NCBI RefSeq assembly: GCF_014218355.1
Contig: NZ_AP023368.1
Span: 3,476,001-3,540,000, forward strand
Source: Anaerocolumna chitinilytica
GTDB taxonomy: Bacteria; Bacillota; Clostridia; Lachnospirales; Lachnospiraceae
DNA length: 64,000 nucleotides
Reading direction: 5' to 3'
Shown here piece by piece: positions 13,005 through 41,014 of this stretch; the first letter of the stretch is position 1, and each line of letters begins with the position of its first letter. The notes under the pieces were generated by a model. That model ran no database searches. It saw nothing but the letters and a program-made list of their open reading frames with translations, and was not told the DNA's origin. Made by a program: the position numbers and the translations under genes.

Positions 13005-13030
13005 GGTATGATTGGGTCCTTTCAGGATTA

Positions 13031-14826: not shown

Positions 14827-14846
14827 GAACCTTCCTCCCTCCTATG

Positions 14847-15902: not shown

Positions 15903-15971
15903 TTTATGTACCTTATCCTAAGTTTGTTTATCAGATATTGAAATAACTAATAATCTTATACATGTACTTTA

Positions 15972-17696
15972 TTATTCAAAAGAAATCTTCTTCATTTCAT
16001 CAATGGTAGTGATTCCATCCAGAACATATCTGGTGGCACTCATTCGAATGGTGTCCATTCCTTCTCTTAGAGCAATCTGTTTGATTTCCTCCGCACCGGT
16101 ACGCTTACTGATAGCTTCCTTAAGCTGAGGGGAAACCGGCATTATTTCATATACACCGATACGTCCATAGAATCCGGTATTATTACAATGGTTACAACCG
16201 CAAGAACTGGCTTCATAAATTTGATGTTCCCGCTCTTTCGGTATTCCGAGTAACTCTCTCTCAAGCAGAGTGGTCTCCCTTAATACTTTACATTTCGGAC
16301 ATAGTCTCCTCACCAAACGCTGAGCTATAACTCCTACGGTGGAATCTGCTATCAGATATGGTTCCACCCCCATATCAACCAGACGGGTAATGGTACTGGC
16401 GGCACTATTGGTGTGCAGGGTACTAACTACCAGATGCCCTGTGATGGAAGCCTTAACGGCTATTTCTGCGGTTTCACTGTCACGTATCTCACCAATCATG
16501 ATGATATCCGGGTCTTGCCTTAAGATAGAACGCAGTGCCGATGCAAAGGTCAGCTCGGCTTTTGAATTCACCTGCACCTGATTTACCCCGTTGATATTCG
16601 CTTCAACGGGATCCTCAACAGTAACAATATTGACCCCTTCGGTGTTAAGTTCGCTCAATACGGTATATAAGGTAGTGGATTTACCGCTTCCGGTCGGACC
16701 GGTAACCAGTATCATACCATGCGGATTCTCCAGTATCCTGTCAAATCGCTTTAATTCTTCCTCTGAAAATCCCAATTCCCGCTTGTCCTTTGTAAGACCT
16801 TCCTTCGTGGTGAGACGCATAACTACTTTTTCACCGAATACGGTGGGAAGGATAGAAACACGGATATCATATTCTCTTCGGTCTACAATATGAGTAATAC
16901 GGCCATCCTGAGGTTTTCTTTTCTCAGAAATATCCATTCCGCCGATTATTTTTATTCTTGCTATAATTGCGGGTAAAAGTTCCACATCATAGCGCATGGC
17001 CTCTTTTAGTACCCCATCCACTCGAAAGCGAATTCTTACCTGCCTGCTCAAGGCTTCAATATGTATATCGCTGGCTCTCTGTCTTGCTGCCTGTTCTATT
17101 ATTTTAGTAACCAACTGCACGATAGGTGCATTGTTTACATCTTCATTTTGAGCATTCTCTTCCTTTTCCTTGGAAGCGTATTGTTCCTGACGTTCTCTGG
17201 TATACCGTTCAGCTACCTTCATGGCTTCTGCATTGCCATAATACCTGTCTATAGCAGCTGCTATATCTTTATGAGTGGATACCGCCGGTTCAATCTGATA
17301 ATTGGTAACAATGGAAATATCGTCGATCGCAATAATATCCAACGGGTCTGACATGGCGACCCTTAATATTCCCGGATTGTTTTTATTAAAGGCAAAAGGA
17401 ATAAGGGTATACCTTCTTAAAACAGATTCATCCACCAGAGCAATAATCTCTTCCGGGATACTGATATCGGATAAGGTGACCATATCGATATTCATTTGGT
17501 GGTGGAGTGCATTCGCAATCTGCTCCTCTGTTGTTATCCCCATATCTATAAGCGTCATGCCAAGCTTTTGCTGCTTCTCTTTTTGCTTCATTAGTGCCTC
17601 AGATAATTCTCGTTCACTAAGCACCCCGGCATCTACCAGAAGATCACCCAAACGTTTCTTCTTCCTAACAACTCCCTGAGTCAAATTGTTCAACAA
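15972..17696 (-). CDS. pilB: Pilus extension ATPase PilB
   Basis: 574 residues. An N-terminal GSPII_E_N/MshEN-type domain (about 1-160) is followed by the secretion ATPase core with Walker A GPTGSGKSTTLYT (about 332), Walker B DPDIIMIGEIRD (about 390) and a zinc-binding tetracysteine site (CPKC near 464 and CNHC near 499). It powers pilus extension. The start is a TTG at 17696, supported by AAGGTGG seven bases upstream; a second TTG follows at once. It is the first gene of the operon, about 95 bases after a strong promoter. MshEN domains in some PilB proteins bind c-di-GMP; I did not confirm the binding residues here. Confidence 0.94.
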   Translation of the reverse strand: MLNNLTQGVVRKKKRLGDLLVDAGVLSERELSEALMKQKEKQQKLGMTLIDMGITTEEQIANALHHQMNIDMVTLSDISIPEEIIALVDESVLRRYTLIPFAFNKNNPGILRVAMSDPLDIIAIDDISIVTNYQIEPAVSTHKDIAAAIDRYYGNAEAMKVAERYTRERQEQYASKEKEENAQNEDVNNAPIVQLVTKIIEQAARQRASDIHIEALSRQVRIRFRVDGVLKEAMRYDVELLPAIIARIKIIGGMDISEKRKPQDGRITHIVDRREYDIRVSILPTVFGEKVVMRLTTKEGLTKDKRELGFSEEELKRFDRILENPHGMILVTGPTGSGKSTTLYTVLSELNTEGVNIVTVEDPVEANINGVNQVQVNSKAELTFASALRSILRQDPDIIMIGEIRDSETAEIAVKASITGHLVVSTLHTNSAASTITRLVDMGVEPYLIADSTVGVIAQRLVRRLCPKCKVLRETTLLERELLGIPKEREHQIYEASSCGCNHCNNTGFYGRIGVYEIMPVSPQLKEAISKRTGAEEIKQIALREGMDTIRMSATRYVLDGITTIDEMKKISFE

Positions 17697-20310: not shown

Positions 20311-22644
20311 TTATTGTGTGCCATCCGCTTTCTTTTCGATTGCTTTGATTTCATCCGCATAATCAGACAAGTAATCAATTTGAGGATCATAAGGACTATA
20401 AACATTCTGCTTCATCATATAAACCACGTAGATATCATCCTCAAAATAAACCTTGAAATTGTCCGGATACCTCTTTTTAAATTCTTGTGCCCAATAATAT
20501 GCCTGGGATTCAATGACTGCACGTTGATAGTAATAGTCCTGCACATCCCCCAGATAAGCAAAATTCTTGGCTGCGTATTTCAGATTCACATCCACATAGC
20601 CATAGATGTAATCATTTAACACATGCTTTTCTATAAAAAAGAAAACATACTTGGTCGGAAAAGTAAAAAGTTTTTGATTCCCGTTTACCATATCCATAAA
20701 CTGAGCCAGCTGTGTATGGTAGCCATAGTCCAAAACATCATAGTATTCCTCGGTAGGAGAAACAATCGTATAAGTGTCTTTGGGATATGTCTTCTTAATA
20801 TTTCGCAGGACATACTCGGATTCGTTATAATATGCCTGATCAAAATAGAAGAAGCTGTGCACCCAGCCAAGCAGAATAATGGCAGATGCTATACCGACGC
20901 CAAGAAAGAGTGAAAACGTCCTAAGGAAGGCCTGGTAGTAGCGATTCTTCCAGCCTCCTGCTATACGAAATGCAAAATCCAGCGGAATTATATAGATAAA
21001 CCCGCTGATTGGCTCCGCAAAAGTTGCTATTCTAGCCACCTCAATCAACTGGACAATTCCCAATTTTTTAGCGGCTCCAAATATACAAAGAATAAACATA
21101 TTGATGATTATTGCCAAATACACCTGCCCAATACTTCTGGTCTTTTTTCGTAAAATCATTAGGATTGAACATAAAAATCCTAACAACATACACACAAACA
21201 GTACCAGTATTGCTTCCTCGTTATATATCGTTGTACTGGCAAAGCTGAATAAGGAATTACCTACATAGATTACAATTTCCTTTGCAGACATCTTTGAGTA
21301 GTCGATTTTTACCTTTGTTTCATCTTCTGCGGACGTATCCTCGTTGCCCTCGCCTGCAACATTTTCCCCTAATGCTTCATTCAGATTAGTTTCATACTTC
21401 GTTTCCGCTCCCTGCCATTTCTTACCCTCGATTACGCTGGTTGCCCAGTTCATGGAGCCATTGAAAGGGACTCCTCTGGCAAGAAAAGCTGCCATTGGAA
21501 GAACTGCTATCACTGCCCCCATTATTCCGCAAAACATCAGCGGAACAAAGTACTGTTTCTTTAAGACCTTTGGAAGGTAAGCCAGTCCAATTGCTATTAC
21601 CATAAAAATCGCTGCAATCGCGGTAAAAAAATGATATGCAATGACCAATGAGACACATATCATAACAAAAAGGGCATCGGAATTCAGATATCTCCGGTTG
21701 ATGTAGGAATTCATACGAAAGAAAGACCGAAGCCTTGAATCACTTTCAACCACAGATTTTTTTCTGTCCTGCTTCAGATAGCGGAACATAAAATAGGCAA
21801 GTCCGATAACAGCATACATGGCTGCCTCTTGCGGCAGGGCAGCTGCGTAACGGCTTTGATTCAGCATAAGGCTAACCACTACTGCAACCGTTATCGGTGT
21901 ATACTTCCCATAAAAAATCTGTTTTGCTAACAAAAATATTCCAATGATAAGGAGCACTGTTTGATATGTCCCCGAATAAAGCAGTATCTCACGCAGGTTT
22001 AGTTGAAAGAACGCACGAAGGATAAGTATCATAATATGCATTCCATAGGGATAGACTCCCTCGAAAAACATTTTGCCCTTTTCCATGCCATAAATCCAGG
22101 ATTGATGCACCGGTATATCCGGAAACTGATAGCTATGATACTTCATAACAAAGTGCGTGAGAAAATATATATTGTATAGAACCAGACTTGTTAAGAGAAT
22201 CGTTTCCAGCCAGTTCTTTCTAATATACTTCCATATTTTCCACTGCAGTAATGACCGCCATAAAGTCTTTGACCTTTCTCTAATCTTACGCGTTAAGTAT
22301 TTGACTAATCTTTCTTCATTACTTGCCTCCCATAATTCCAGAATGGTAACCTTACAGCGATAAAAAAACTGTTTATCAGAGAAATTCCAGATTATAAAGG
22401 AATAAATAAGTACATTGCTTCCAATGATTGAGAAACGATTTAAGATATTGAAAAACCCAAGGAGGTATACCAGGTTAATTTCCAGTGCTGCCTGGGTAAG
22501 CAAGCAAAACCAAAAACGATAACTATAGCTTTTATTTAAAAGATATTTTCTCCAAACAATCAGCGGAATCAGAAAATCCCGTACCACACTGCATAATAGT
22601 ACTAAAACCAAAGACACTATATATGCATTCGTATCAACTATCAT
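20311..22644 (-). CDS. Large polytopic membrane protein, GT-C-like
   Basis: 777 residues. The N-terminal part has four hydrophobic segments, then a basic cytoplasmic stretch (about 105-145), about ten further helices, and a soluble C-terminal domain (about 615-777). The first large outer loop, with DIPVHQSWIYG and GVYPYGMHIM, resembles the acidic loop of GT-C glycosyltransferases, which use lipid-linked sugars outside the membrane. An acidic insertion is found at about 410-440. I do not recognise a named family. The tandem repeat array lies immediately upstream. A role as polymer-modifying transferase or polymerase is inferred from layout and neighbours. Confidence 0.6.
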   Translation of the reverse strand: MIVDTNAYIVSLVLVLLCSVVRDFLIPLIVWRKYLLNKSYSYRFWFCLLTQAALEINLVYLLGFFNILNRFSIIGSNVLIYSFIIWNFSDKQFFYRCKVTILELWEASNEERLVKYLTRKIRERSKTLWRSLLQWKIWKYIRKNWLETILLTSLVLYNIYFLTHFVMKYHSYQFPDIPVHQSWIYGMEKGKMFFEGVYPYGMHIMILILRAFFQLNLREILLYSGTYQTVLLIIGIFLLAKQIFYGKYTPITVAVVVSLMLNQSRYAAALPQEAAMYAVIGLAYFMFRYLKQDRKKSVVESDSRLRSFFRMNSYINRRYLNSDALFVMICVSLVIAYHFFTAIAAIFMVIAIGLAYLPKVLKKQYFVPLMFCGIMGAVIAVLPMAAFLARGVPFNGSMNWATSVIEGKKWQGAETKYETNLNEALGENVAGEGNEDTSAEDETKVKIDYSKMSAKEIVIYVGNSLFSFASTTIYNEEAILVLFVCMLLGFLCSILMILRKKTRSIGQVYLAIIINMFILCIFGAAKKLGIVQLIEVARIATFAEPISGFIYIIPLDFAFRIAGGWKNRYYQAFLRTFSLFLGVGIASAIILLGWVHSFFYFDQAYYNESEYVLRNIKKTYPKDTYTIVSPTEEYYDVLDYGYHTQLAQFMDMVNGNQKLFTFPTKYVFFFIEKHVLNDYIYGYVDVNLKYAAKNFAYLGDVQDYYYQRAVIESQAYYWAQEFKKRYPDNFKVYFEDDIYVVYMMKQNVYSPYDPQIDYLSDYADEIKAIEKKADGTQ

Positions 22645-26435: not shown

Positions 26436-27815
26436 TTAATTACCAAGGATGAAATTACCAAGGCTATAGACTCCGGTATAATCAAGCGCTGCGAAGGTGT
26501 TTGCAATCTTTATAGGCTGCTCGGACAGCGGATCATAAATCCCCATGCAGAGACTGTATTGGTATTGCTTGTGTTCCTTCTCTGTAAGCCACTCTGCTGC
26601 AGGTAACACCGCCTCTAATAATACCTTCTCGTTCGGCAGCCATTTACGGGTATCTGTATCAGCAGTACATTTATGCACCACGAAAAGGGCAGCAGTTCGA
26701 ATTATAAGCTTTACTTCAAATTTATGATAACAAGGGGAAAATCCCATGTTGGTGATTTTTATAGATACTTTTATATTACCGCTCTTATCAGAGGCAAGGG
26801 ACAGATCGACCTCTTCTAAGGTAAAACGATAACCCAGATGAGCTGTAATGTAGTCATATGCCGTTTTCTCTTTCCACAGGGCAAAACCACACTTACTTTT
26901 TTTCCATTTATGAAGCACCTGTTCGTCATACTCACTATGCAGATAAGAAACTTTCATTTCCCTCAAAGTGCTTATTGCCAGCGTTGGGTCATTATAGGCA
27001 CATTCATTAATAACCTCACCACCATTGGAAACGTAGTTGCATAACTCACTCTGAAACTTAAGTTCATCCTCACGTACCCATTTATCGCTATATTCTTTGG
27101 AATCAATCGCCTTGATATCTCCATAGGTACCAAAATCAACTTCTGAGGCCATCATACCGTCATTGAAGAGTGAAAACCTGGCCTTTTGAATATCTGTATA
27201 ACCAGTCTCTGCGTCCAAGGGTTTATATGTTTGAAATAACATCCGCCAGAAACTGGGACATCGCAGTGCTATTTGCGTATTTTCCCCGGTACATTCGTAC
27301 AGCTGTTTTGCCAGCCGTGCCATATTGCGGTCACTTAAATATCTTGAACTGTGCATTTCTCCCCAACTGCCGATGAAAAGTCCCTGCACGATGTAAATAT
27401 TATTCGCATATTCTTTCAGAAGTAATGATAGCTGCTTCATATGATTTAGGATGATTGTGATGTCCTTGGGTTCATTTAAAATACCTTTCCCTTCCCAATC
27501 ATATACAAAACGAACAATCATTTGCTTTTTTTGGATAATAAAATATTGAAAGATACGCTCTATATTATTAATAGCTTTTTCTGATAATGGCATTTCATTA
27601 TAAGGAAGGAGATTGATTTCCACGAGACATAGTTGATGAGCAGTATTAATTGAAATCTGTTCTACCATCTTCCCTTCCGGCTGCAGCATTGCAGAATCAG
27701 CATAAAAACGATAGATTGCGTATAATCCGCAATAGGGATTATTCAGAGACTCCGCTTTTTCTGTTTTTGGAAGCGGCATCCACTTAAATTTAGTAACAGG
27801 ACCCTTTCGTGACAT
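26436..27815 (-). CDS. DUF4874/DUF4832 protein (glycosidase-like barrel, unknown function)
   Basis: 459 residues from the ATG at 27815, which has GGAAGGTG seven bases upstream; an in-frame start at 27851 would overlap the previous gene. The N-terminal part (NPYCGLYAIYRFYADS, then QLCLVEINLLPYNEMPLS and MIVRFVYDWEGKG) matches my memory of DUF4874, and the central part with LFIGSWGEMHSSRY, ALRCPSFWR and FNDGMMASEVDFGTYG matches DUF4832. These pairs look like a TIM-barrel glycoside hydrolase with a C-terminal beta-sandwich, and occur in exopolysaccharide loci. No signal peptide is visible, which is unusual if it acts on an extracellular polymer. Substrate unknown. Confidence 0.8.
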   Translation of the reverse strand: MSRKGPVTKFKWMPLPKTEKAESLNNPYCGLYAIYRFYADSAMLQPEGKMVEQISINTAHQLCLVEINLLPYNEMPLSEKAINNIERIFQYFIIQKKQMIVRFVYDWEGKGILNEPKDITIILNHMKQLSLLLKEYANNIYIVQGLFIGSWGEMHSSRYLSDRNMARLAKQLYECTGENTQIALRCPSFWRMLFQTYKPLDAETGYTDIQKARFSLFNDGMMASEVDFGTYGDIKAIDSKEYSDKWVREDELKFQSELCNYVSNGGEVINECAYNDPTLAISTLREMKVSYLHSEYDEQVLHKWKKSKCGFALWKEKTAYDYITAHLGYRFTLEEVDLSLASDKSGNIKVSIKITNMGFSPCYHKFEVKLIIRTAALFVVHKCTADTDTRKWLPNEKVLLEAVLPAAEWLTEKEHKQYQYSLCMGIYDPLSEQPIKIANTFAALDYTGVYSLGNFILGN

Positions 27816-27834
27816 ATATGAACACCTTCCATGA

Positions 27835-28578
27835 TTATTTCTGTAACCCATTTTTTACACGTTTTATAACAGTCATGATACTAAGGGGCATAATCATCAT
27901 ATAAAGCATCTGTTTTAACAGTCCTGTGTGCATGCTTAAGCCGGCCTTTCTTTCATGCATAACAGATGCTGTTTCTACTACATTAAATCCTAAGAGCAGC
28001 ATCTGGATAATCATATTGGCATCGGGATAAAAATAATCAAAATTTCCATATATAGAATAATATGTAAATGTTTTTTTGTTCAAGCCTTGCAGCCCCGAGG
28101 TAGGATCGGTTATTGTCTTGCCGGTTGTTCTCTTAATCACCCAGGAAAACATAGCAAGGGATATTTTCTTGATTCCTGAAATCTTAAAAGACTGGCTTCC
28201 CTCTACAAAACGAGAACCAATTACGATATCAGGTAAGTTACCCTCCTCATCCTTTGTCGTCAGACATTGATAAATGTGCGCGATATTAGAGGGGTTATGC
28301 TGACCATCCGCATCTATCTGGATGACATAATCATACCCTCGGCGAACAGCATATTTATAGCCAACCTGCAGGGCAGAACCATACCCCAGATTAAATACAT
28401 GGGTAACCAAAGAGACATGATATTTTTTTGCAATAAGTCCCGTCTGATCCATAGACGCATCATTTACAACCAGAATATCTGCAAAGCTTCGGATTTCAGG
28501 TGTGCACAAATCATTAAATAATGCTGTCATATTCGCTTCTTCATTAAATGCAGGAACTATAATCAATACTTTATTCAT
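27835..28578 (-). CDS. GT2 glycosyltransferase, dolichol-phosphate-mannose-synthase-like
   Basis: 247 residues. It has the GT-A signature VLIIVPAFNEEANMTALF, the DILVVNDASMDQT strand and YVIQIDADGQHNP with a clear DAD metal site, then GSRFVEGSQSFK and an amphipathic C-terminus. This subgroup transfers a sugar to a polyprenyl phosphate carrier. In this locus it would supply lipid-linked sugar to GT-C-like enzymes such as the protein at 20311-22644, in the same way as GtrB. The start codon overlaps the stop of the GT4 gene by four bases, which suggests coupled translation. Confidence 0.88.
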   Translation of the reverse strand: MNKVLIIVPAFNEEANMTALFNDLCTPEIRSFADILVVNDASMDQTGLIAKKYHVSLVTHVFNLGYGSALQVGYKYAVRRGYDYVIQIDADGQHNPSNIAHIYQCLTTKDEEGNLPDIVIGSRFVEGSQSFKISGIKKISLAMFSWVIKRTTGKTITDPTSGLQGLNKKTFTYYSIYGNFDYFYPDANMIIQMLLLGFNVVETASVMHERKAGLSMHTGLLKQMLYMMIMPLSIMTVIKRVKNGLQK

Positions 28579-29844: not shown

Positions 29845-30327
29845 TCAGCAAAATGGGGTTCCAATAGTAAAGGGCATTCCATCAGAGGAGGAAATTCCTT
29901 TAGGGGAAGACATCTCAGTGGAAGGAGACGTCTGAGTGGAGGAAGACCGCTCAAGAGTAGCAGCATACTCCCTTGTAATCAGATCTTTCAAATGACTGTT
30001 CTCTTCATTTAGCAAAGATACCTGCATGGCAAGCTCTTGTACCCGAGCAGATAATTCAGCATTAGCCTTGTAGCAGTTAAAAATCCCATAGGTTGCCAGA
30101 ATAATGGCGATTGCAAATATAATGGACGGCGGGTATTGTACTGAGAACTGGTCGGATATAAAATACACCAATCCGGGAACCAAACCAAATATAATTATTA
30201 TGATACCACCCATAATCCAGAACAAACTTTGTTTTTCTGTCATTTTACGGACAACGCTGGCTTTTCTCGCCATATAAATCAGAATCAAACCCGAAGCGCA
30301 AATAAAAAGCTGAAGTAATAACGACAT
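29845..30327 (-). CDS. DUF2304 small membrane protein
   Basis: 160 residues. Three hydrophobic helices (about 3-19, 33-57, 66-86) are followed by a coiled coil (about 90-125) and a Ser/Thr/Pro-rich tail. The helix-loop-helix layout with YMARKASVVRKMTEKQSLFWI fits DUF2304, a family commonly found beside DPM-synthase-like GT2 genes in cell-wall glycan loci. It may anchor or regulate the neighbouring GT2. TTAGGAGGAATTAT gives a strong ribosome site at the ATG. Function unknown. Confidence 0.8.
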   Translation of the reverse strand: MSLLLQLFICASGLILIYMARKASVVRKMTEKQSLFWIMGGIIIIIFGLVPGLVYFISDQFSVQYPPSIIFAIAIILATYGIFNCYKANAELSARVQELAMQVSLLNEENSHLKDLITREYAATLERSSSTQTSPSTEMSSPKGISSSDGMPFTIGTPFC

Positions 30328-30401
30328 ATAATTCCTCCTAATGTACTTTTGTCAACTATACCCCTACATGCTAATACAACCCCAAATTCAATAGTTTATC
30401 G

Positions 30402-31850
30402 CTAACCTTGTTTATATACATTATAAACATCCGCCCTTGGCATCTCCTCGTATACCTGCTTTAGGACCGTACCACGGCAGAATACATGGCTGTCCAGATT
30501 TTTCTCGATCCAGCGCAGCCTGAAATAAGAGAATGTAAACGAGCAAAAAGCACCTGCCGTAAACCCTGCTCCATACCAGATAGCAGACAGCTGTGTTGCC
30601 AGAAGAGAACCGGCTAAGGTAACACTTGCAAAAATCACACCATTGATCACGGCACCTTTTAAGTCATCAAAATAATACAGGAACAGCAATTCAGAATACA
30701 TTAAAAATGCTATGAAATAACCTACTGCCAATTGGGGATATATCTCCATAATCATTCCGGAAAATCCGATAATCGGCAGAATTACAATGGCAATTAGATA
30801 AACCACCACCGAAACAATAAACTGAATATGTGTAAGAGACAAAAGCTGTGAAGAAAGTCCTCGAAACATCCTTTTCTTCGTCTTCTCAATACTGTCAAGT
30901 TTACCTCCGATGACAGCTTGCGTATAATCCTTGTACCTGTCATGGAAGTGCATCTCCACTCTGGATATAAACAAAACACTGGCAGATATATTGGTAAACA
31001 TAGCAAGACAGGTAGCCATATCATAGGATTGGTTACAGACATAGGTGTCGCGAACTACCAGATGGGTCGGATGGGTCCAAAATACAAAATTGTGAATAAA
31101 CAGTCCCAGCGTATATAAAAAATTAGAGACAATTAACCTCCAATACACCTTATAATAGTGCAGTACATCCCCGTATTTACGGCTGTTCGCAGGAAAATAC
31201 CGCATTACATTACCTATCTCCAGGGAAGCAATCAGTAAAAAACCAATACTTAAAGCAAGCAGCATACTATAGGTAATGGAAAACTTCAGAAGAAGGCGAA
31301 AAATCACGGACAATAAAAACGTCAGCACCATACTGCTTAAAAAGTACAAAGAAACTTTCTTATATTGCTTTAAAATTGAATTATAAACCATAGAGGAAAA
31401 TGTCAGCGTCAATCCCAAATAAGCCATATAGGTTGTAAACACATAGTAAATAGCTACCTGGCCGATAACCACCTCATAAATATAAAAGGGGATTGCTATC
31501 AGGGAGGAAAGGGTAAGGTTTGTGATTGTTCCCACAAAAACACATGGTCTAATATCTTCATAATGCTGCTCATATATCCTATCCGTCTGAAATTTGGAAA
31601 GTACCGAGTTAAAAGGAGAGGAAGTTAAAAGGGAAAAGATAAATATATACAGAATACTGCTTGAAAAGGTTTCCCTTTCCAAATACCCAACCTGATCAAA
31701 ACCTAATACACGATACATTCCAAAAAGGCATCCTATCACTACCAGCATTGGTGCAATCGTATTAACAAAGCTAAAGCCAATGCCATAAAGAGAAGCAGTT
31801 AATGTATGTTTATCAAATATTCTGTTTAGCTGAACACCAATACCAGCCAT
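30402..31850 (-). CDS. pelG: Pel exopolysaccharide transporter PelG
   Basis: 482 residues from the ATG at 31850 (MAGIGVQLNRIFDK), the standard PelG start; a GTG at 31862 is less likely. About 12 membrane helices. Motifs such as LLTSSPFNSVLSKFQTDRIYEQHYEDI match PelG, a MOP-superfamily member that moves Pel polymer across the membrane together with PelD and PelE. It follows pelF by about 33 bases, as in other Pel loci. No pelB or pelC is present, as expected without an outer membrane. Confidence 0.92.
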   Translation of the reverse strand: MAGIGVQLNRIFDKHTLTASLYGIGFSFVNTIAPMLVVIGCLFGMYRVLGFDQVGYLERETFSSSILYIFIFSLLTSSPFNSVLSKFQTDRIYEQHYEDIRPCVFVGTITNLTLSSLIAIPFYIYEVVIGQVAIYYVFTTYMAYLGLTLTFSSMVYNSILKQYKKVSLYFLSSMVLTFLLSVIFRLLLKFSITYSMLLALSIGFLLIASLEIGNVMRYFPANSRKYGDVLHYYKVYWRLIVSNFLYTLGLFIHNFVFWTHPTHLVVRDTYVCNQSYDMATCLAMFTNISASVLFISRVEMHFHDRYKDYTQAVIGGKLDSIEKTKKRMFRGLSSQLLSLTHIQFIVSVVVYLIAIVILPIIGFSGMIMEIYPQLAVGYFIAFLMYSELLFLYYFDDLKGAVINGVIFASVTLAGSLLATQLSAIWYGAGFTAGAFCSFTFSYFRLRWIEKNLDSHVFCRGTVLKQVYEEMPRADVYNVYKQG

Positions 31851-31883
31851 ATCCGTTCTCACCTCTCTTTTTACTAAATTGAA

Positions 31884-33350
31884 TTACTGCTTCTTTTTAA
31901 CCACAAATGCTTCTTCCGTATAAGTAACATCACTCATTTCAGCCAGGGTTTTATAAATCTTTCTATAGTTGTTTTCCATATACACATTTTTATATTTCGC
32001 CATAAGACGATTATAACCATTCATGCCCATCTTCTTTCGTAAAGCAGGATCAACAGCCAACTTTAAAATTGCGTTGGTTATTTCTGCAATATTCATAACA
32101 GGTACGATAATACCTGCCTCACCAAAGGAATCCCCTTCTCCGTAAACCAAGCCATAACAGTTACCTACATTCGTAGCAATACACGGTTTTTTTGCAGCAA
32201 ACCCTTCCAAAATCGTAAGTGGCTGGCCTTCGCTGATACTGGTAAGTATGGTCATATCCATTTTTCCGATATACTCAGTCGTACGTATGCTGCCTGTAAA
32301 TACGATATTTTCAGCATTCAGAGCTTTTATCAATTCATGGCAGTCTGCAGCATATTCCGGATCCTCATCATCCGGTCCCATAATCCATAGCTTTAGCTTC
32401 GGCTCTTTCTGATGTGCATAGTAAAATGCATTAATCAAGGTCTTTACATCCTTGATCGGTGTAACACGAAGGATTGCCCCAACATTAATATTCACATCCT
32501 CCGGATCTTTCATAGGAATGTCCTCGAAATGCTTTGCATCAATGCCATTGGGTGTAATGATTGCCTTTTCCTCCGGGCAGCCTAACTCTATTTGCAAGGA
32601 GTGAGCCTGTTTAAAGAGAGAAGTTACCAGATCTGCAAAATAGTATGCGCATTTTGACATTTTATGAAACTGCTCAATCCATATATTTTTATAAATCCCT
32701 TGAACCCATTTTGCTTTGATAATCTCCTCTTCCCTCTCACGGGTATAAATACCATGCTCACTGATAAGCAATTTTGCATTGGTGTAGATGGACAGGGCTT
32801 TGCTGCCAATAATACCTGCATAGCCGGTGGATACGCAGTGGTAAATATCAGCTTTTGGCGGCATACATTTTAACGCGAAGAAAAGCGGTAGATAGATAGA
32901 GCGCATGGTCCACAGGAAATCTGAAAAGGTAATATCATAATACCGCAGAGAATAATAGTCTTTTGTGACCTCCAGGAATTCCGGACTCATCAGAATATTG
33001 TTAATGGAGACATTCTTCCGGCTAAACATTCTAAACACCGTCAGCCAGTCTACCTCTTGTCCGATAATCAGGCTTCTCAGTGCATCCAATTCTTTTTTCT
33101 TTAGATGTACCCTTTTTTCGGTCCTGTATTTTCCGACCCAGTCCACATCCTGTAAATAGACCTCATGGACTTCTGTCAGATTATCCGGCAGACTGTAGGC
33201 AAACTTGCCTCTGATGCTCCGATCTGCCACAATTGTAATGAGATTGAACTCAATATTGGGAAATAATTTTATGATGCTGTGTATCCAGCTGGATACACCG
33301 CCAACAACATAGGGGTAACATCCCTCCGCTATTAAACAAACCTTCATCAT
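31884..33350 (-). CDS. pelF: Pel polysaccharide glycosyltransferase PelF
   Basis: 488 residues, cytoplasmic GT4. It starts MMKVCLIAEGCYPYVVGGVSSW, diagnostic for PelF, and contains the ISEHGIYTREREEEI motif, the donor-site segment ISEGQPLTILEGFAAKKP, and a C-terminal GT-B domain with GAILRVTPIKDVKTLI. PelF is the polymerase that uses UDP-GlcNAc/GalNAc-type donors to make Pel. GGGAGG lies just before the start. Neighbours are the DUF2194 gene upstream and pelG downstream. Confidence 0.93.
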   Translation of the reverse strand: MMKVCLIAEGCYPYVVGGVSSWIHSIIKLFPNIEFNLITIVADRSIRGKFAYSLPDNLTEVHEVYLQDVDWVGKYRTEKRVHLKKKELDALRSLIIGQEVDWLTVFRMFSRKNVSINNILMSPEFLEVTKDYYSLRYYDITFSDFLWTMRSIYLPLFFALKCMPPKADIYHCVSTGYAGIIGSKALSIYTNAKLLISEHGIYTREREEEIIKAKWVQGIYKNIWIEQFHKMSKCAYYFADLVTSLFKQAHSLQIELGCPEEKAIITPNGIDAKHFEDIPMKDPEDVNINVGAILRVTPIKDVKTLINAFYYAHQKEPKLKLWIMGPDDEDPEYAADCHELIKALNAENIVFTGSIRTTEYIGKMDMTILTSISEGQPLTILEGFAAKKPCIATNVGNCYGLVYGEGDSFGEAGIIVPVMNIAEITNAILKLAVDPALRKKMGMNGYNRLMAKYKNVYMENNYRKIYKTLAEMSDVTYTEEAFVVKKKQ

Positions 33351-33394
33351 AGCCTCCCTCTGCCTTCCAGTAATATATTTTATTTACAGGCAGT

Positions 33395-35305
33395 TTATTT
33401 CGGGTTACTTGGTATTAATTTATTATTTTTCGGCTTCTGAAGAAGATTCTTTTCACTCATATGAAGCCTTACTTCTTTCCCTTGTGCTTTAATCAGATAG
33501 AAGGTATCAGATATCTTCTTGGCTGTCCCATTCTCCACAGAATCAATTTGCTTATTACTGGTATTAAATATAAAGTAAGCTTCCTTCTCGAAATGATCTA
33601 TATGAATATCAACATCCTCTGCATTATAATCCCAGGTGTAGTCCAATGCCAGAAAGCGTCTCACCCGGTTTTCCATTTCATAGACTGATACCATGTCCAT
33701 CATAGAATAATCATTAAAATACGTACTGCCCTTAGACAATTTAAGGCTTAACTCATTCCATTCATCAGAGAGATTCTGCGGATACAGGACTCGTTTAATA
33801 TCCACTCCCATATTGCACATGCCCAGTGCATTTTCTATGGCATTCATTCTCAGGTCATCCATGGTTTCATGCCGGTAACCATCCAGAGTATATTTTACGG
33901 AAAGTACATCGGCATTTAAAAAGCCCAATAGATTATCCCCCTCTTTGTAGTCTGACATAACCAGATTAATATCATGCAGGAAAGCACTATTAAGCACACT
34001 CTCCACTTCCCCTTCACGAAAACCTGCCGTATACAATGCTGTAAAATGATAATCCGGCAGAAATTTTCTAAAAAACAATTCATTTTTCTTAAGCATATCA
34101 TTTATATCAACTCCAGACACCTGACCTAAGGATAGGCCCAATCCTCCTGAAAGTTTTTCAATCTCCTCCAAGTAAAATACAAGATAATCCTCCTTTGAAG
34201 CAGCATTATTTTGATAATCCAACTGAGGCGCTGCGAAAAAGTTATAGGAACCACCATATTTTTTTAATATTTGAATAATATTAGGCCACAGCAGGTCTCT
34301 GGCCACTGCCTCTGAATTCCGGCTATACAATTGATTCATCACATCATAATTCTCATCAGAGAAATAGGGGTAACTTAGCAGGGAAATTGTTTGTGCATTT
34401 ATAATAGGATAGAGATAATATTCACTTTGATGGGCCATAAATCCTGTCAATATACCAAGTAGAGATGTACCATCAAAAATATCGCAGTTTACAACACATA
34501 CAAATGAATTTCTCGTTGTCGTCCTCCAAAGCAGCGGCGGAAGATCCTTATCTTCGATTTTAAGATTCTTTTGATTTTTAAAGATTCCTACTGCGTATAC
34601 CTCATAACCTGCTGCCAGTGAATAATAGGGGACATCGACTTTGGTATCATCCTTCTCACCAAAATAGTCACCCTTTGTATAAATTCGTTCTTTGTTTATC
34701 ATGAAATTAGAAAATATCTTAATTCCGTCAGCTGTCACATTCTCAGCCACCTCAGCCTTTATACCAAAAAAGGCGGCAAGTTCCTTGCTCTTAGAAATGG
34801 TCCCATAATCAGGAAGCTCCGGAAAGATCATGGTCTTACCCAGATCAGCATAAGCGTAAAGGTCTGCCAAATCCTCTGCTGTAATCTTGTAATCACCAAA
34901 AATTACTGTATCATAGCCAGATATCTCTTCTTTTTTAGGCAGAGAATGAAAGACCTTGTACAAATATTTATTATATACGCACCACTGAATCAGAACCTGG
35001 GTATTCGTACTTTCTTTGTCTAAGGACATATCCTTGGACATATCCTGGGATATAATAGCGATGCGTAGCTTTCCTCTTTTATCTACAACTTCTCTTCCCT
35101 TCGCAGGTGCTAATGAGGCAGAAAGCTCCAGATTCAGAGAATCAGCCGTTATCGTATCGCTGATAGTAATATCTGATTTATCTGTCTCCTTTATATTCTT
35201 AGAAGTACCTGACAAAATATTTGTAGAGACGCCAATAAACATAAACATTACAAATACCATTAACATTAATATAAAAATTGTAAAGTAATTTTTTATAGAA
35301 ACCAT
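33395..35305 (-). CDS. DUF2194 membrane-anchored protein of the Pel locus (possible PelA counterpart)
   Basis: 636 residues with one N-terminal membrane helix (about 8-30) and a large outer region. Residues about 80-240 show a Rossmann-like or amidotransferase-like pattern (KLRIAIISQD, YDTVIFGDY, GKTMIFPELPDYG). A second domain from about 350 to 600 has barrel-like features (YGGSYNFFAAPQLDY, HFTALYTAGFREGE). The family name DUF2194 is from memory. In Gram-positive Pel loci the gene between pelE and pelF encodes a membrane-anchored PelA deacetylase domain, so by position this may play that role. I cannot point to a firm set of catalytic residues. Confidence 0.75.
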   Translation of the reverse strand: MVSIKNYFTIFILMLMVFVMFMFIGVSTNILSGTSKNIKETDKSDITISDTITADSLNLELSASLAPAKGREVVDKRGKLRIAIISQDMSKDMSLDKESTNTQVLIQWCVYNKYLYKVFHSLPKKEEISGYDTVIFGDYKITAEDLADLYAYADLGKTMIFPELPDYGTISKSKELAAFFGIKAEVAENVTADGIKIFSNFMINKERIYTKGDYFGEKDDTKVDVPYYSLAAGYEVYAVGIFKNQKNLKIEDKDLPPLLWRTTTRNSFVCVVNCDIFDGTSLLGILTGFMAHQSEYYLYPIINAQTISLLSYPYFSDENYDVMNQLYSRNSEAVARDLLWPNIIQILKKYGGSYNFFAAPQLDYQNNAASKEDYLVFYLEEIEKLSGGLGLSLGQVSGVDINDMLKKNELFFRKFLPDYHFTALYTAGFREGEVESVLNSAFLHDINLVMSDYKEGDNLLGFLNADVLSVKYTLDGYRHETMDDLRMNAIENALGMCNMGVDIKRVLYPQNLSDEWNELSLKLSKGSTYFNDYSMMDMVSVYEMENRVRRFLALDYTWDYNAEDVDIHIDHFEKEAYFIFNTSNKQIDSVENGTAKKISDTFYLIKAQGKEVRLHMSEKNLLQKPKNNKLIPSNPK

Positions 35306-35320
35306 TGTCCCTTTCCAGGA

Positions 35321-36217
35321 TTATGAGCCATCATACAATCGGAACAAGTTCATAATCTCTTCATCAACAATAATATTCGATTCTCTTAATTCATCCAGAC
35401 AATCAAAAAAAGCTGTTTTATTTTGCTGTTCAAAATATAAATGCAGAAAAGCCTTGTACGTATCCAGCATATGCTGGCGGTACAAACCGGCTCTGGAAGC
35501 CCATTTATCAGCCATATTATAATTCTTAATGGATAGGAACAAATCCGTCATCCATAAATAATGGGTAGCCGTCATGTACCAAAGATTATGTTGAAAGAGA
35601 TTCTCCGCAACATTGTCCATAATATAAATATAGGACCTCTGTTCCACTTCATTCATAATCTTCATACTTAGAATTTCATGAATATAATCAAGGGAAAGAA
35701 GATTAAGCTCCACATCTTCCGGATGCCTTTGCATTTGATCAATCATATTTTGTGCCGTAGTACGGCATTCCGACAATGCATCCAAAATGATAGATGCCGC
35801 ATAATGTGAGGTTTCGGTATCCTCACTATTCATAGCTACCACAATGCTGGAAACCGTTTTTTTCGCATTGTTGCGCAGAGTATCTAAAAGAAGTCTCCTA
35901 AGACTTGAGGTATCTGAGACTGCCATCGCATCCTGAATCGGTACATAATTCATCTCCATTTCACTATTTGGTGGCAGTATTATCTTCTCCCTTTCCTGGT
36001 TAAAGCTTATATCATTCATATCAATATTCTTTTTCCGGCTTAAGAAACTAAACAATAAACCTAGTAAAATATATAACAATCCGAAAAATGGTACGATAAA
36101 TATAAACCAGGAAAGCATAACTTGTGTACTTCGTTGACCTTTTTTTCGAAAGAAAGCCGTCACAAATACGATTACTGCAATCAGTGAATTCAATATCAAA
36201 ATAAGCAGAACCGGCAT
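35321..36217 (-). CDS. pelE: PelE-like membrane protein with TPR-type helices
   Basis: 298 residues from the ATG at 36217, which has AAAGGAG seven bases upstream and sits just beyond the previous stop codon. Two membrane helices at about 2-21 and 33-56 are followed by a soluble all-helical region with TPR-like repeats (about 115-290). PelE has two membrane helices and TPRs and links PelD to PelF and PelG. Sequence similarity is weak; the call rests on topology, the TPR pattern, and position between pelD and the other pel genes. Confidence 0.7.
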   Translation of the reverse strand: MPVLLILILNSLIAVIVFVTAFFRKKGQRSTQVMLSWFIFIVPFFGLLYILLGLLFSFLSRKKNIDMNDISFNQEREKIILPPNSEMEMNYVPIQDAMAVSDTSSLRRLLLDTLRNNAKKTVSSIVVAMNSEDTETSHYAASIILDALSECRTTAQNMIDQMQRHPEDVELNLLSLDYIHEILSMKIMNEVEQRSYIYIMDNVAENLFQHNLWYMTATHYLWMTDLFLSIKNYNMADKWASRAGLYRQHMLDTYKAFLHLYFEQQNKTAFFDCLDELRESNIIVDEEIMNLFRLYDGS

Positions 36218-36218
36218 C

Positions 36219-38396
36219 TTAATACTCCTTTTCCGGATAAGTCGTAATATTCTTCTCCTCCAAACGTTTTCTGACATAGACCGACTCGGATTCATTTGTA
36301 TTGGTCAGCAGAACGGCAAGGTTCCCGTCCGGCATGATACCGATATAATCCGACTCCCGCAATAATGGTTTAATAGTATCGCTCATTTCCTTTATAGATC
36401 TATAATCTCTTTGGATATAGATAACGCTTTGCTCTGCATATCCTTTTTCGCTGGCATGCTTGTATATATCCAGCATCCCACGAAATGCAGCTTCCTGAAG
36501 GATTGCTGTTTCAGGAATGAATCTGCGATTAGCTAAAGCATCCAGATAATCTGCATCTCGAACGATAACAGAATAAATCAATGCGCCAACGATTGTAAGC
36601 AGATTGGCCTGGTATAGAGTCATTTGCTCGTAGGGAATACCCCACAATAATATTAAAATTCTCATTTTATCATTATTATCAAAAAGAGCGCTGGCCATCA
36701 TCGGCAATGCACTGTCTAAGGAACGATTAATGTATACCTGCTTTCCCGCTAAGACTTCAAAAATCATTTTATAATTCTTCATTGGAATTGATTTGCCCAG
36801 AGAACGGGCTTTTTCGCTGGAAGCAGATGCCAGCCTGCAGTACTCTGCATTTGACACAATATAAATCGAAACATCCTTTGTATTCATGATATCCGAAAGC
36901 GTATCCAATGACGCAAACATCACTTCACCCGTTGCAGCCTTGTCCAATTTAGAGGTAATCTCATAAATACGGCCGATACTCTCCGAGCTGCTGATTATCT
37001 TATCCGCAAAATAATTCTTGATTTTCATATTACTGGAATTGATGACAGTAATATCCTCCAACCGTTCTGTAAGGAAATCTATCTCCTCGTTTTTATCCAA
37101 TTTCATCTCAATAAATCTGTCTTTTAAATGCCCCACTGTCAGAGCCACAACAAAAATCTGAGCTATCCAAATGTAAGTGTTAATATCTATTAATATGGAA
37201 AAACCTGAGGTTGTATACGTTTGACGGAAGCAATATCCAACAACACTGAGAAGGGAGGCTAAAATAGCCTGTTGCCTGCCATGAATCACCGCAAATAATA
37301 ACACATATAGTAAATAGAAGTTAATTCCACTGAAATAAGGATTGCTCACCATACTATTATTCAGTATAAAAAAAGGGATAAAGAAAACCAGACATTCAAT
37401 AAAAGGAAAACTCTTTCGAAGCAAGCGAAATATTCTCTCTCTTAATCCATCCCCTCTGTATCTTTCATCCTTATGCAAAAACAGATTCTTATGATTGTTC
37501 ATATAAGAAATAATTTTAGGAACTACATCTTTATAGCTATTTCTGATTTCAAAAGGAAACTCCTTGCAAAATCTTTCATTTGATAAAATGGTTCTATGTT
37601 TAAGGCCTACTGTTTGGTCCACAATATCAATTTGCCTTGAATATTTTTCTTGAATTAACCTGGCAACTGCATCTCCTGTGATCTCTTCCATAGAAGAAAT
37701 ATGATAAAGATGCTGCTTTCTCTCAGGTGCTTTAATTAACAATGCTATCGCTTCCACTGCATCCTTTACATAAAGCGCTGATAATATCTTTTTTGCATTT
37801 ACCTGCAAACGACCGGTAATCAATGCCTTTAGACATATGCCTGAAAGAATATCCGTACATGCTTCTCTGTCAGCAGGAATACCATACATACCCGCAACTC
37901 TCAAAACCGTTACTTCCATCTGTGTTACCTGATTAAAATGTAAGGAGAGATTCTCTCCCTGAGAAATCGTCATACCTTTCATACTATTAGGGGATGCCGG
38001 TACATCCTCATTGATATCTATAATATATTCATCTTCATAGACAGCCTCAGAAGATACATAGATAAAATGCCTGACACCAAACATTCCTGCACACATGAGC
38101 AGGTTATTGAGCCCGGTTATATACTTTGAGGATTCCTCAAACATACTTTTATCATCCCACTTATATAATGGATCATAAGCCCCTGTAAAAAGAATAGCAT
38201 CCGGACGGCTGCTGCTAATAAGAGATCTAACACTGTCACTGTCATAATGAAAGATATATTGTTCGAACACATGGGCAGGCTTTTTTGACTTTTTATTACT
38301 ATTTAATGTATAAATATCCCATTTTTCTTTATAGAATTTATGAATAATTTCATTGGTAAAAGTGCCATAACTTCCAACTATTAGGATGCTGCCCAT
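36219..38396 (-). CDS. pelD: PelD-like c-di-GMP receptor fused to a degenerate NAD-epimerase domain
   Basis: 725 residues from the ATG at 38396; a GTG at 38420 has no ribosome site. Residues 1 to about 300 form an extended-SDR fold (ILIVGSYGTFTNEII, FIYVSSEAVYEDE, LRVAGMYGIP). By hand alignment the catalytic Tyr and Lys of the usual YxxxK are replaced (K140 and I144), so it is probably not an active epimerase. Four membrane helices follow (about 331-422), then a GAF domain (about 480-615) and a degenerate GGDEF domain. The I-site motif RESD (680-683) lies six residues before the altered signature PDGNL (689-693), the same spacing as in true diguanylate cyclases. This is the PelD layout plus an extra N-terminal domain. 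It is the first gene of the locus. Confidence 0.85.
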   Translation of the reverse strand: MGSILIVGSYGTFTNEIIHKFYKEKWDIYTLNSNKKSKKPAHVFEQYIFHYDSDSVRSLISSSRPDAILFTGAYDPLYKWDDKSMFEESSKYITGLNNLLMCAGMFGVRHFIYVSSEAVYEDEYIIDINEDVPASPNSMKGMTISQGENLSLHFNQVTQMEVTVLRVAGMYGIPADREACTDILSGICLKALITGRLQVNAKKILSALYVKDAVEAIALLIKAPERKQHLYHISSMEEITGDAVARLIQEKYSRQIDIVDQTVGLKHRTILSNERFCKEFPFEIRNSYKDVVPKIISYMNNHKNLFLHKDERYRGDGLRERIFRLLRKSFPFIECLVFFIPFFILNNSMVSNPYFSGINFYLLYVLLFAVIHGRQQAILASLLSVVGYCFRQTYTTSGFSILIDINTYIWIAQIFVVALTVGHLKDRFIEMKLDKNEEIDFLTERLEDITVINSSNMKIKNYFADKIISSSESIGRIYEITSKLDKAATGEVMFASLDTLSDIMNTKDVSIYIVSNAEYCRLASASSEKARSLGKSIPMKNYKMIFEVLAGKQVYINRSLDSALPMMASALFDNNDKMRILILLWGIPYEQMTLYQANLLTIVGALIYSVIVRDADYLDALANRRFIPETAILQEAAFRGMLDIYKHASEKGYAEQSVIYIQRDYRSIKEMSDTIKPLLRESDYIGIMPDGNLAVLLTNTNESESVYVRKRLEEKNITTYPEKEY

Positions 38397-38448
38397 ACTG
38401 TTATTCTCTCTCCTAAACACAAAATTACAAAAATCAGCCTTGAACCTT

Positions 38449-38477
38449 ACTATAATATAAATTCTATGTCATTTCAA
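38449..38477 (-). promoter_or_regulatory. Putative promoter of the pel/exopolysaccharide locus
   Basis: On the minus strand TTGAAA (38477-38472), 17 bases, TATAGT (38454-38449). The expected start is near 38442, about 45 bases before the pelD-like ATG. A perfect plus-strand TATAAT overlaps it (38451-38456). Confidence 0.5.
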
Positions 38478-38555
38478 GTAAAATTAGTCTGTAAGTGTTC
38501 ATTTCTTGTATAAAAAAGCCTTATAAAATCAACATTTTCCTTAATATGTCACCTC

Positions 38556-38599
38556 TTCCATTAATAGGTATTTTTACCTATTAATGGAACAATTTTTTT
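38556..38599 (+). terminator. Perfect 15-bp hairpin followed by T7 in the divergent pel intergenic region
   Basis: TTCCATTAATAGGTA (38556-38570) and its exact complement (38575-38589) flank a TTTT loop. On the plus strand CAA and seven T residues follow (38593-38599). It has the form of a terminator, but no annotated plus-strand gene ends here; both neighbours point away from it. It could end a small RNA or act as a protein-binding dyad. The rest of 38397-38832 holds the two divergent promoters and AT-rich sequence. Confidence 0.65.
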
Positions 38600-38705
38600 A
38601 TGACAAAGAGCACGCTGCTTATTTCCTTTATTTAGTATATTTATACATTATGCAACAAATAAACACAATTCTTCCTATGCATATAATGGATATCCTTGTC
38701 TTTAG

Positions 38706-38734
38706 TTGACAAATAAAGTTACATAAGCTAATAT
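38706..38734 (+). promoter_or_regulatory. Putative promoter of the DivIVA-like coiled-coil gene
   Basis: TTGACA (38706-38711), 17 bases, TAATAT (38729-38734). A TATAAT also occurs at 38732-38737 but at 20-base spacing. The leader to the ATG is about 90 bases. Confidence 0.5.
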
Positions 38735-38832
38735 AATTAGCGTAAGAAAGAAATACAGGATACCTTTTAAGGTTTATTAGTCGCAACAGCAGACCCAATT
38801 AATATATATTATGTAGTGAAAGGATGGATGGC

Positions 38833-39660
38833 ATGAAAAAAACCTTTTGGGGATATAGCGTTTCTGAGGTTGATATCATTATAAACACTCTACGTGAAGA
38901 AAACGAAAGCCTGAACGCTACTATTACTACATTAAAGACACAGATAAAGAATAGCGAGACCAGCGGAGCAAAAGCTAATCTCTTAGAAGCTGATTTAAGA
39001 ATGCTTGAAGAGGATCTTAATAAACTGAATGAAGAGAAACTTGAGCTACTTTCCCAGATTTCTTCCTTCAAAGAAGAATCTGAAGCTTTGAAGCAGCAGA
39101 ATGAAAGTTTAAATCTCCAGCTTTCCCAACTACAACTACAAAATGCAAAGCAAATAGACCTCCAGCATACGGAAGACCCCTCCTTTGATAAAGTAGTGCA
39201 GACGGAGCAAGAGCTTCAAGATATGACAGATGAAATAATATCTGCTGAGAGCGAATTGAAAGAAGCAATCGTTCCAATAAAAGAAATTATGAAAGTACAA
39301 TTAGAAATAGATACCATGAAGGATGAAGTTGCCATCTCTAATAATACAGCTTTTGAACAGTTAAGGGCTAAAACTATTGATTGCAATTCACAGGATAATT
39401 TGAACCAGATGTCTGAGATTTCTTTACACGCCTATGGTGAAATGTCTAAGATGAGAAATGAAGTTATTGATTATATCCATACCCAGATGAAGGAATATTA
39501 TAAAATGCTTGATGAAAACAATGCCAAGCTATATAAAGTTTCTAATACAATGGATGCAATTATGGCTGATTTTATTAAGAAATCCAATGATTATTTAAAA
39601 ACAGACGACACTGTAAGGCCGTTCAAGTATGAATATCAACCTGATGAAATCATAAAATAA
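38833..39660 (+). CDS. DivIVA-like coiled-coil protein
   Basis: 275 residues from the ATG at 38833; AAAGGA is eight bases upstream, while an in-frame ATG at 38824 is too close to it. The start MKKTFWGYSVSEVDIIINTL resembles the membrane-curvature-binding head of DivIVA/GpsB proteins (GYxxxEVD). The rest is a long coiled coil (about 17-110), an acidic linker, and more helix. Proteins of this kind mark cell poles or division sites and recruit partners. It is divergent from the pel locus and near the pilus operon, so a role in placing surface machinery is possible but not shown. A strong terminator follows. Confidence 0.6.
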   Translation: MKKTFWGYSVSEVDIIINTLREENESLNATITTLKTQIKNSETSGAKANLLEADLRMLEEDLNKLNEEKLELLSQISSFKEESEALKQQNESLNLQLSQLQLQNAKQIDLQHTEDPSFDKVVQTEQELQDMTDEIISAESELKEAIVPIKEIMKVQLEIDTMKDEVAISNNTAFEQLRAKTIDCNSQDNLNQMSEISLHAYGEMSKMRNEVIDYIHTQMKEYYKMLDENNAKLYKVSNTMDAIMADFIKKSNDYLKTDDTVRPFKYEYQPDEIIK

Positions 39661-39724: not shown

Positions 39725-40375
39725 GCATCGATTACACTGATTATGCAAATGTGAAGCCTGAATCCTGTACGGAAGAAATTATTTTTATTATTTTCCTTTT
39801 TGCATAGCTTCCTAAAGTTAGCAAATATTGATAATAAAATAGCAATTTATGGAAAGTAAAATACTGCTCTATGAGGTATTATAAAATAAAGAAAAGGTTA
39901 GATGATATTGCATATAATAAATCTTTCTACATAATTACACATTTTATTTGAACACTCTTTCTTGATAGCTTTACTGCATTTGTTTGATACATCTTTATAT
40001 TAAGAAATACCAGATACGATTTTCATATAACTTTGCAATTGTTTAAAAGCCTCTATCAGAATTGTATCTGGGACTTATAATCTTACTAGTTTATCTAAAT
40101 ACTTCAATGTATTTCTAGTTCAAGTTACTATCATAATAATAAACTCTAAATGACTTAAATTCCAATCACAAAACTTCTTATGCAAAACCACATTCATAAT
40201 CGACAGACAAAAATGGTACAACCTGTATTATTTTAATTCATTGTATTATTTTAATTCATTGTACTATTTTTAATTTACTGTTCTTATTTAAGGCTTTTAA
40301 TTGATTTTAAAAGCAGCAATATTTAGATGGTATGTAGGTAAGTGTAACTATAAACTATATATTGGAGGGGTCAAT
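39725..40375. other. Long AT-rich intergenic region before the xylanase gene
   Basis: About 650 bases with no plausible coding frame on either strand. It holds a 12-bp wobble-containing inverted repeat (CCAGATACGATT at 40010-40021 with AATTGTATCTGG at 40060-40071), the 18-bp tandem repeat listed separately, and a small GCTTTTAA/TTAAAAGC hairpin (40293-40314) just upstream of the gene. The length suggests complex control of the xylanase. Confidence 0.6.
40225..40278. repeat. 18-bp tandem repeat upstream of the xylanase gene
   Basis: The unit GTATTATTTTAATTCATT occurs at 40225-40242 and again, exactly, at 40243-40260. A third, diverged copy (GTACTATTTTTAATTTAC) occupies 40261-40278. The array ends about 100 bases before the xylanase ATG and may be a set of regulator binding sites or slippage-derived sequence. 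Confidence 0.85.
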
Positions 40376-41014
40376 ATGAACAAATTAACAAAGAAGGTTT
40401 TGGCATTTTTATGTGCAGCTGCAATGAGTATTACAGGATTATTTACAGGAACAGTATCCGCTGCTACGGATTACTGGCAGAATTGGACTGATGGAGGAGG
40501 TACCGTTAATGCTACCAATGGTTCCAATGGAAATTTCAGCGTTAGTTGGACAAACTGCGGAAATTTTGTTGTAGGTAAGGGCTGGAATACCGGTAATGCT
40601 TCCAGAGTAGCTAATTACAATGCAGGTGCCTTTTCGCCATCCGGTAATGGTTATCTGACTTTATATGGATGGACAAGAAACTCTCTTATTGAATATTACG
40701 TTGTAGACAGCTGGGGTACATACAGGCCAACCGGAACCTATAAAGGAACGGTAACAAGTGATGGCGGTACATATGATATTTATACAGCTATGAGATATAA
40801 CGCCCCATCTATTGACGGTACTCAGACGTTCCAGCAGTTCTGGAGTGTAAGACAGGCAAAGAGAGCTACCGGCAGCAATGTACAGATCAATTTCGCCAAC
40901 CATGTTAATGCATGGAGAAATAATGGGATGAATCTGGGAAGCAGTTGGTCTTATCAGGCCGTATGCGTAGAGGGATATCAAAGCAGTGGTTATGCAAATG
41001 TAACCGTTTGGTAA
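40376..41014 (+). CDS. xynA: Secreted endo-1,4-beta-xylanase, GH11
   Basis: 212 residues from the ATG at 40376 with GGAGGGG five bases upstream; a longer frame from 40301 is not supported. A signal peptide ends at about VSA-A (residues 29/30). The GH11 catalytic nucleophile is E106 in [13 protein letters not shown] and the acid/base is E199 in [17 protein letters not shown]; the conserved thumb region around [20 protein letters not shown] is intact. The enzyme hydrolyses xylan chains outside the cell. There is no carbohydrate-binding module, so the catalytic jelly roll stands alone. It is monocistronic, with a terminator downstream. Confidence 0.97.

Follow-up and report, generated by a model that had tools for sequence, protein, structure and literature searches.

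A PelD protein of Anaerocolumna chitinilytica joined to a catalytically dead-looking SDR domain

The pel operon and its surroundings

Within the window (the whole 64,000-nucleotide stretch of Anaerocolumna chitinilytica DNA that we analyzed), a run of pel genes on the minus strand begins with pelD, whose product joins an N-terminal extended-SDR domain to a PelD-type receptor (Table 1). Translation of the pelD frame ends after 725 residues at a stop codon, and an AGGAGAG box lies 5' of its ATG. An alternative upstream GTG start would give 733 residues, though the close relatives, among the best 120 of 444 matches, are mostly of about 725. When searched against its own genome of 5.62 Mb, the PelD protein returned a single match, this being pelD itself.

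Table 1. Features of the pel region and of the PelD protein, with positions in the window
Feature	Position	Strand	Basis
777-aa membrane-type protein	20311-22644	(-)	0 Pfam matches at E 0.01
DUF4874+DUF4832 protein	26436-27851	(-)	Pfam; same gene run as pel
pelG	30402..31862	(-)	PF16933, E 9.8e-135
pelF, glycosyltransferase	31884..33350	(-)	NF038011, E 1.2e-104, over cut-off
pelA, deacetylase-type (DUF2194), named by position	33395..35305	(-)	PF09960, E 7.8e-22; 45/45 loci
pelE	35321..36217	(-)	Position and relatives beside pelD in 45/45 loci; no Pfam family over cut-off
pelD, SDR-TM-GAF-degenerate GGDEF fusion, 725 aa	36219..38396	(-)	ORF translation, Pfam, relatives, predicted structure
Degenerate GGDEF domain, residues 627-725	36222..36518	(-)	Weak profile matches
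R711, matched by spacing to B. cereus R395 / P. aeruginosa R402	36264..36266	(-)	Alignment
RESD, residues 680-683, RxxD of putative c-di-GMP site	36348..36359	(-)	Alignment
GAF-like domain, residues 471-612	36561..36986	(-)	Predicted alpha/beta order
Membrane segment, residues 317-445	37062..37448	(-)	Predicted helices
N-terminal extended-SDR (epimerase-like) pseudoenzyme domain, residues 1-303	37488..38396	(-)	
K140-G-M-T-I144 replacing catalytic YxxxK	37965..37979	(-)	Alignment
Class-III-specific conserved patch, residues 44-80	38157..38267	(-)	11/19 class-III-specific positions
Gene with DivIVA match under cut-off, divergent from pelD	38824-39660	(+)	
GH11-family glycoside hydrolase	40301-41011	(+)	E 7.2e-71

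The original prediction had read a membrane, GAF and degenerate GGDEF order behind the SDR part, and this same order is present in the secondary structure of the predicted model (mean pLDDT 83.6). Here, helices are predicted at residues 317-349, 360-372, 374-395 and 405-468, and a DUF4118 match at residues 358-427 falls under its curated cut-off, while the Pfam GAF families (PF01590 and PF13492) are assigned in some relatives but not in this PelD. A profile of the GGDEF part gave weak matches among PDB sequences (best E 0.03), four of the five being diguanylate cyclases or GGDEF proteins, and in the three alignments shown its RxxD was aligned on RxxD. The PF16963 (PelD_GGDEF) profile found no match in the genome, but also none in any of the 14 controls, and HMMER likewise misses it in the PelD of B. 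cereus, according to the available text of PMC7112168. At the N-terminal end, a fold comparison with the whole-protein model, in which the lists are dominated by the SDR domain, gave a Rossmann-like fold of the GalE type. Judged from its sequence, the description of the protein as a PelD joined to a catalytically dead-looking SDR is a supported one.

Downstream of pelD, the start of pelE lies one base past the pelD stop. To compare gene order, we took the best 80 of 318 genome loci, from which 45 had flanks long enough (at least 17.9 kb). In all 45 of these the genes for D, E, A and F are found, with G in 44, and the D-E-A-F order is kept in 44. In the one with a different arrangement, L051, the best matches to PelE and PelF precede pelD and sit on the opposite strand, which may reflect a second pel-like set or else a rearrangement. 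Past pelG, and on the same strand, there follow genes for a DUF2304 protein, two glycosyltransferases and the DUF4874/DUF4832 protein, with DUF4832 among the accessory genes that the accessible part of PMC7112168 lists for the pel loci of clostridia. Among the 17 window proteins scanned with Pfam, none was a match to CotH, polyphosphate polymerase or DUF4956. Relatives of the 777-residue membrane-type protein (23-36% identity over the best pieces) occur in 26 of the 45 pel loci of at least 17.9 kb, L019 (11390-13750) and L025 (11178-13756) being examples, and in 25 of those 26 they lie between pelE and pelA(DA). In 6/45 loci, a relative of the divergent gene with the DivIVA match precedes pelD on the opposite strand. 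Farther off, at 773-17696 on the minus strand, ORF translations inspected by eye suggest a type IV pilus-like cluster with prepilin-like proteins, a peptidase and assembly ATPases.

As for control elements, a c-di-GMP riboswitch was looked for 5' of pelD and not found: none of the Rfam families attained its gathering score anywhere in the window, and the one match near pelD was at chance level. Promoter-like sites over 30000-39000 numbered 36 versus 35.1 in shuffles, and hence showed no excess.

Relatives of the protein and the c-di-GMP site

Fusions of an SDR to PelD are already published, and this protein belongs to that kind. In the text available for PMC7112168, the extended PelDs of streptococci, clostridia and actinobacteria are described with an N-terminal epimerase-like domain that has altered residues and is likely inactive, and in that available for PMC12345266, four PelD classes are cited, with the function of the degenerate domain given as unknown. 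Our own literature search, which covered titles and abstract openings of papers mostly outside subscription, found none that gives the degenerate SDR domain a function. As far as these sources could be compared (PMC7112168, PMC12345266), the degenerate-SDR PelDs have the same inactive-looking N-terminal SDR, membrane, GAF and GGDEF parts (the GGDEF in those outside the streptococci only), and their pelD likewise heads a pelDEADAFG operon; we found no difference in kind, with the present protein being a Lachnospiraceae-type member. In this PelD the SDR is present, its cofactor and catalytic residues are altered, and a GGDEF domain is present, from which we infer, following the published scheme, that it falls into class III (degenerate SDR with GGDEF).

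The rows that we compared came from homology lists of the best 120 of 444 matches (this PelD as query), the best 120 of 786 (L096 as query) and the best 120 of 206. From these and the genome loci, we obtained 198 class III rows, in which the query is included and proteins and loci overlap (137 are left at 85% identity), together with 117 class II rows (PelDs of the Paenibacillaceae type), or 118 after adding L096. Dropped by length were P0076, P0078, P0159, P0175 and P0204, which stayed out of the Selenomonas-type count as well, and P0341 was left out ahead of that count; L001 and L095 were removed as copies from the own genome, and L100, L101 and L102 were too short. A look for the fusion beyond the source genome, as had been suggested with the original prediction, did find it elsewhere: from 299 genomes of the phylum, seven (the own genome among them) gave a match, one of which (G117) has a short PelD that is without the SDR part. 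Uncovered in the same survey was L096, whose domains follow the same order and whose SDR is intact, and which as a query led to Paenibacillus, Cohnella, Brevibacillus and others (among the best 120 of 786 matches). These PelDs with an apparently active SDR share with this protein the domain order and the c-di-GMP residues, whereas the YxxxK and GxxGxxG motifs that they carry are lost here. The entries P0121-P0240 are apparently intact epimerase-PelD fusions, many from Paenibacillus, Cohnella and Brevibacillus, and such fusions would put the supply of UDP-GalNAc and a c-di-GMP receptor into one protein. In the accessible portions of the literature, Brevibacillus alone is named for a PelD with a likely functional SDR (PMC7112168), a pelD of Paenibacillus mucilaginosus is listed as 'NAD-dependent epimerase dehydratase', and pel genes are described as uncommon in a set of 41 Paenibacillus strains (PMC9956331).

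For the receptor part, the binding of c-di-GMP requires R363, D366 and R395 in the PelD of B. cereus (PMC7112168) and R367, D370 and R402 in that of P. aeruginosa (PMC2170427), as stated in the available text of these papers. Both proteins have the membrane, GAF and degenerate GGDEF parts and the R/D/R residues as here, though without an SDR domain. By motif and spacing, the counterparts in this PelD are R680, D683 and R711, the last of which the original prediction had not named; from the RxxD arginine to the last arginine the distance is +31, as against +32 in B. cereus and +35 in P. aeruginosa. The three residues are invariant in 60/60 homologs, and among best-match rows each is found in 198/198 of class III, which supports the earlier reading of RESD as the RxxD of a putative c-di-GMP site, while in class II they are retained in 117, 117 and 116 of 118. 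In the Selenomonas-type rows, a third group that covers Selenomonas and its relatives, all three occur in 119/119, and hence the c-di-GMP residues are nearly unchanged across the three groups. Moreover, the genome has 25 GGDEF matches, so that c-di-GMP is likely made. From its sequence, this PelD is therefore a likely binder of c-di-GMP.

Residues lost from the SDR domain

By hand alignment, K140 and I144 had been placed at the sites of the catalytic Tyr and Lys, and the comparison agrees with this to the residue. Among best-match rows, Tyr and Lys stand exactly at 140 and 144 in 118/118 of class II versus 0/198 of class III, and a Tyr/Lys pair sought at residues 132-150 was seen in none of the 198 class III rows. 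Similarly, this PelD has GSYGTFT where GxxGxxG would be expected, with the latter present in 0/198 class III rows versus 116/118 of class II (the remaining two are without that stretch). For the Selenomonas-type rows, YxxxK is found in 0/119 and GxxGxxG in 1/119.

The positions beyond the catalytic pair follow the same trend. At position 32, the end of strand 2, Asp occurs in 117/118 class II rows, while Asp or Glu occurs in 0/198 of class III. Residues N169, R205, D206, R262 and D265 are found in 117, 118, 118, 109 and 112 of the 118 class II rows, as compared with 40, 6, 0, 0 and 5 of the 198 class III rows, where no row (0/198) has at least three of them together. By analogy with GalE as applied to the aligned columns, we take those of N169, R205, R262 and D265 to serve in UDP-sugar binding and that of the strand-2 acid in NAD binding. 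With the UDP-sugar set mostly lost and the strand-2 acid absent in class III, canonical NAD or UDP-sugar sensing by the SDR part appears unlikely.

A pyridine nucleotide or a nucleotide sugar had been proposed as the ligand of the SDR part, and precursor supply was thought able in this way to gate Pel synthesis together with c-di-GMP. These losses speak against both proposals, and we regard an NAD(P)H or UDP-sugar sensor as improbable, even if the SDR fold is intact, the fold residues N98, S115, S116, E148, R166 and D212 are retained in class III, G8 is found in 196/198 rows, and the intact relatives suggest an original tie to UDP-sugar supply. The comparison names the residues concerned and weakens the case for a sensor of the simplest sort. 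Alternatively, the SDR part might still be catalytic by way of an altered mechanism, for which one could point to Ser115 (198/198 class III rows) and Ser/Thr116 (196/198), but the Tyr/Lys pair and GxxGxxG are both absent from all 198 rows, and we give this reading next to no credence.

Elsewhere in the genome, and far from the window, two GalE-type matches are over the family cut-off, so UDP-GalNAc can be supplied independently of the fused SDR. A linked galE that compensates for the dead SDR was considered as a rule and rejected, given that a match of more than 150 bits to these two GalE proteins occurs in 1/45 loci of at least 17.9 kb (L058), where it lies just ahead of pelD. As a separate observation, L100 (genome G220) has an intact-looking galE just ahead of an SDR-pelD, and its pelD is split into two open frames. 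As a separate active enzyme, the UDP-GlcNAc C4-epimerase of Pseudomonas protegens (PDB 6wjb), which we take to be PelX, is unlike the fused SDR here.

The history of these losses was followed with quick tree searches, in which support was by SH-aLRT only. The PelD-core tree clusters the Lachnospiraceae rows with the active-SDR rows and apart from those of Selenomonas, though a single clade of all dead forms was not rejected by the AU test (p 0.67), and the SDR-only tree places the dead forms together (87% SH-aLRT). Still, P0360, which retains GxxGxxG, is nested within the Selenomonas group in both of these trees (99 and 96% SH-aLRT), and the Lachnospiraceae group is its own unit in both (100 and 99% SH-aLRT); on the strength of these two placements, we limit our claim to GxxGxxG, the erosion of which took place independently in the two lineages, that of Lachnospiraceae and that of Selenomonas. 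Also carrying GxxGxxG is L098, the placement of which is less certain.

Selection on the SDR domain and its possible role

The same fused domain is intact-looking in one PelD branch, and dead-looking but selected in others, a contrast that sharpens the question of why a dead SDR domain is kept. Over 21 pairs of related loci, in which some loci recur from pair to pair and the window's own pelD does not figure, the median dN/dS was 0.076 for the SDR (range 0.028-0.164), 0.051 for the membrane part, 0.045 for the GAF and 0.13 for the GGDEF, these values being approximate with synonymous distances of up to 1.4 over the whole gene. By this measure, the dead-looking SDR domain is under purifying selection in the relatives. 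Moreover, at 40 positions of the SDR the conservation within class III reaches at least 90%, and at 19 of these class II has a different or less conserved residue. As read from the alignments, such a pattern is not that of a decaying leftover. A functionless remnant would fit the lower mean pairwise identity of the SDR (0.42 in class III versus 0.62 in class II) and the shortened active-site region in many Selenomonas-type SDRs; set against this are an SDR identity in class III that still exceeds that of its GGDEF part (0.38), the dN/dS values, the 40 conserved positions, and an SDR that keeps its full length across the 80 loci that served as rows (though these were chosen as best matches to a full-length profile), and we consider a remnant very improbable.

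Eleven of the 19 class-III-specific positions fall within residues 44-80 (F44, E45, F49, Y51, S62, P65, F70, G72, Y74, D75 and W80), a clustering with a hypergeometric probability of 8e-7 for a region that was picked after inspecting the data. In the predicted secondary structure, this patch lies around strands 3 and 4, which from SDR topology we take to be the cofactor side of the Rossmann fold.

We lean, with confidence a little above even, toward a c-di-GMP-gated PelD whose inherited and now dead epimerase domain serves in the docking or assembly of the synthase. Here, c-di-GMP would bind at the I-site (R680, D683 and R711) of the degenerate GGDEF and turn on the PelD-E-F-G synthase of the biofilm sugar Pel, a switch of the kind shown for B. 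cereus (PMC7112168) and P. aeruginosa (PMC2170427) in the available text. The N-terminal domain would share common descent with the epimerase-like SDR of Paenibacillaceae PelDs, which remains intact and probably produces UDP-GalNAc next to PelF. The present lineage would have lost catalysis along with the canonical binding of both NAD and UDP-sugars, and selection would have preserved the fold as a module for the docking or assembly of the synthase, most probably via the patch at 44-80. Counted against docking is that the median dN/dS of the SDR exceeds those of the membrane and GAF parts.

The same conservation would be expected from a new small-molecule ligand, and a patch on the old cofactor side could mean just that. 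Several of its residues are polar or aromatic (E45, Y51, Y74, D75 and W80), as would suit an SDR part that binds a different small molecule at a rebuilt cofactor side and adds a second signal beside c-di-GMP. However, a protein contact fits the same pattern, no ligand is indicated, and the choice of region after inspection weighs here too, which makes this other ligand rather unlikely in our estimation. Put more broadly, it is conceivable, though we are doubtful, that the dead epimerase was rebuilt as a binding module in which F44, E45, Y51, G72, Y74, D75 and W80 bind either a ligand or a partner, and so provide a second input to Pel beside c-di-GMP. Since GxxGxxG was lost independently in two lineages while the domain was kept, this second input would need no NAD or UDP-sugar chemistry.

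In S. thermophilus JIM8232, pelD is without the SDR part and biofilm formation is pel-dependent, as reported in the accessible part of PMC7112168. By analogy with this strain, the SDR part may be dispensable in some settings. An SDR fold that acts as a regulatory subunit has a precedent in MAT2B, which matches the SDR part in both sequence (E ~6e-5) and fold (9qpp). MAT2B is the regulatory SDR-fold subunit of human methionine adenosyltransferase, and differs from the domain here as a separate subunit of an unrelated enzyme.
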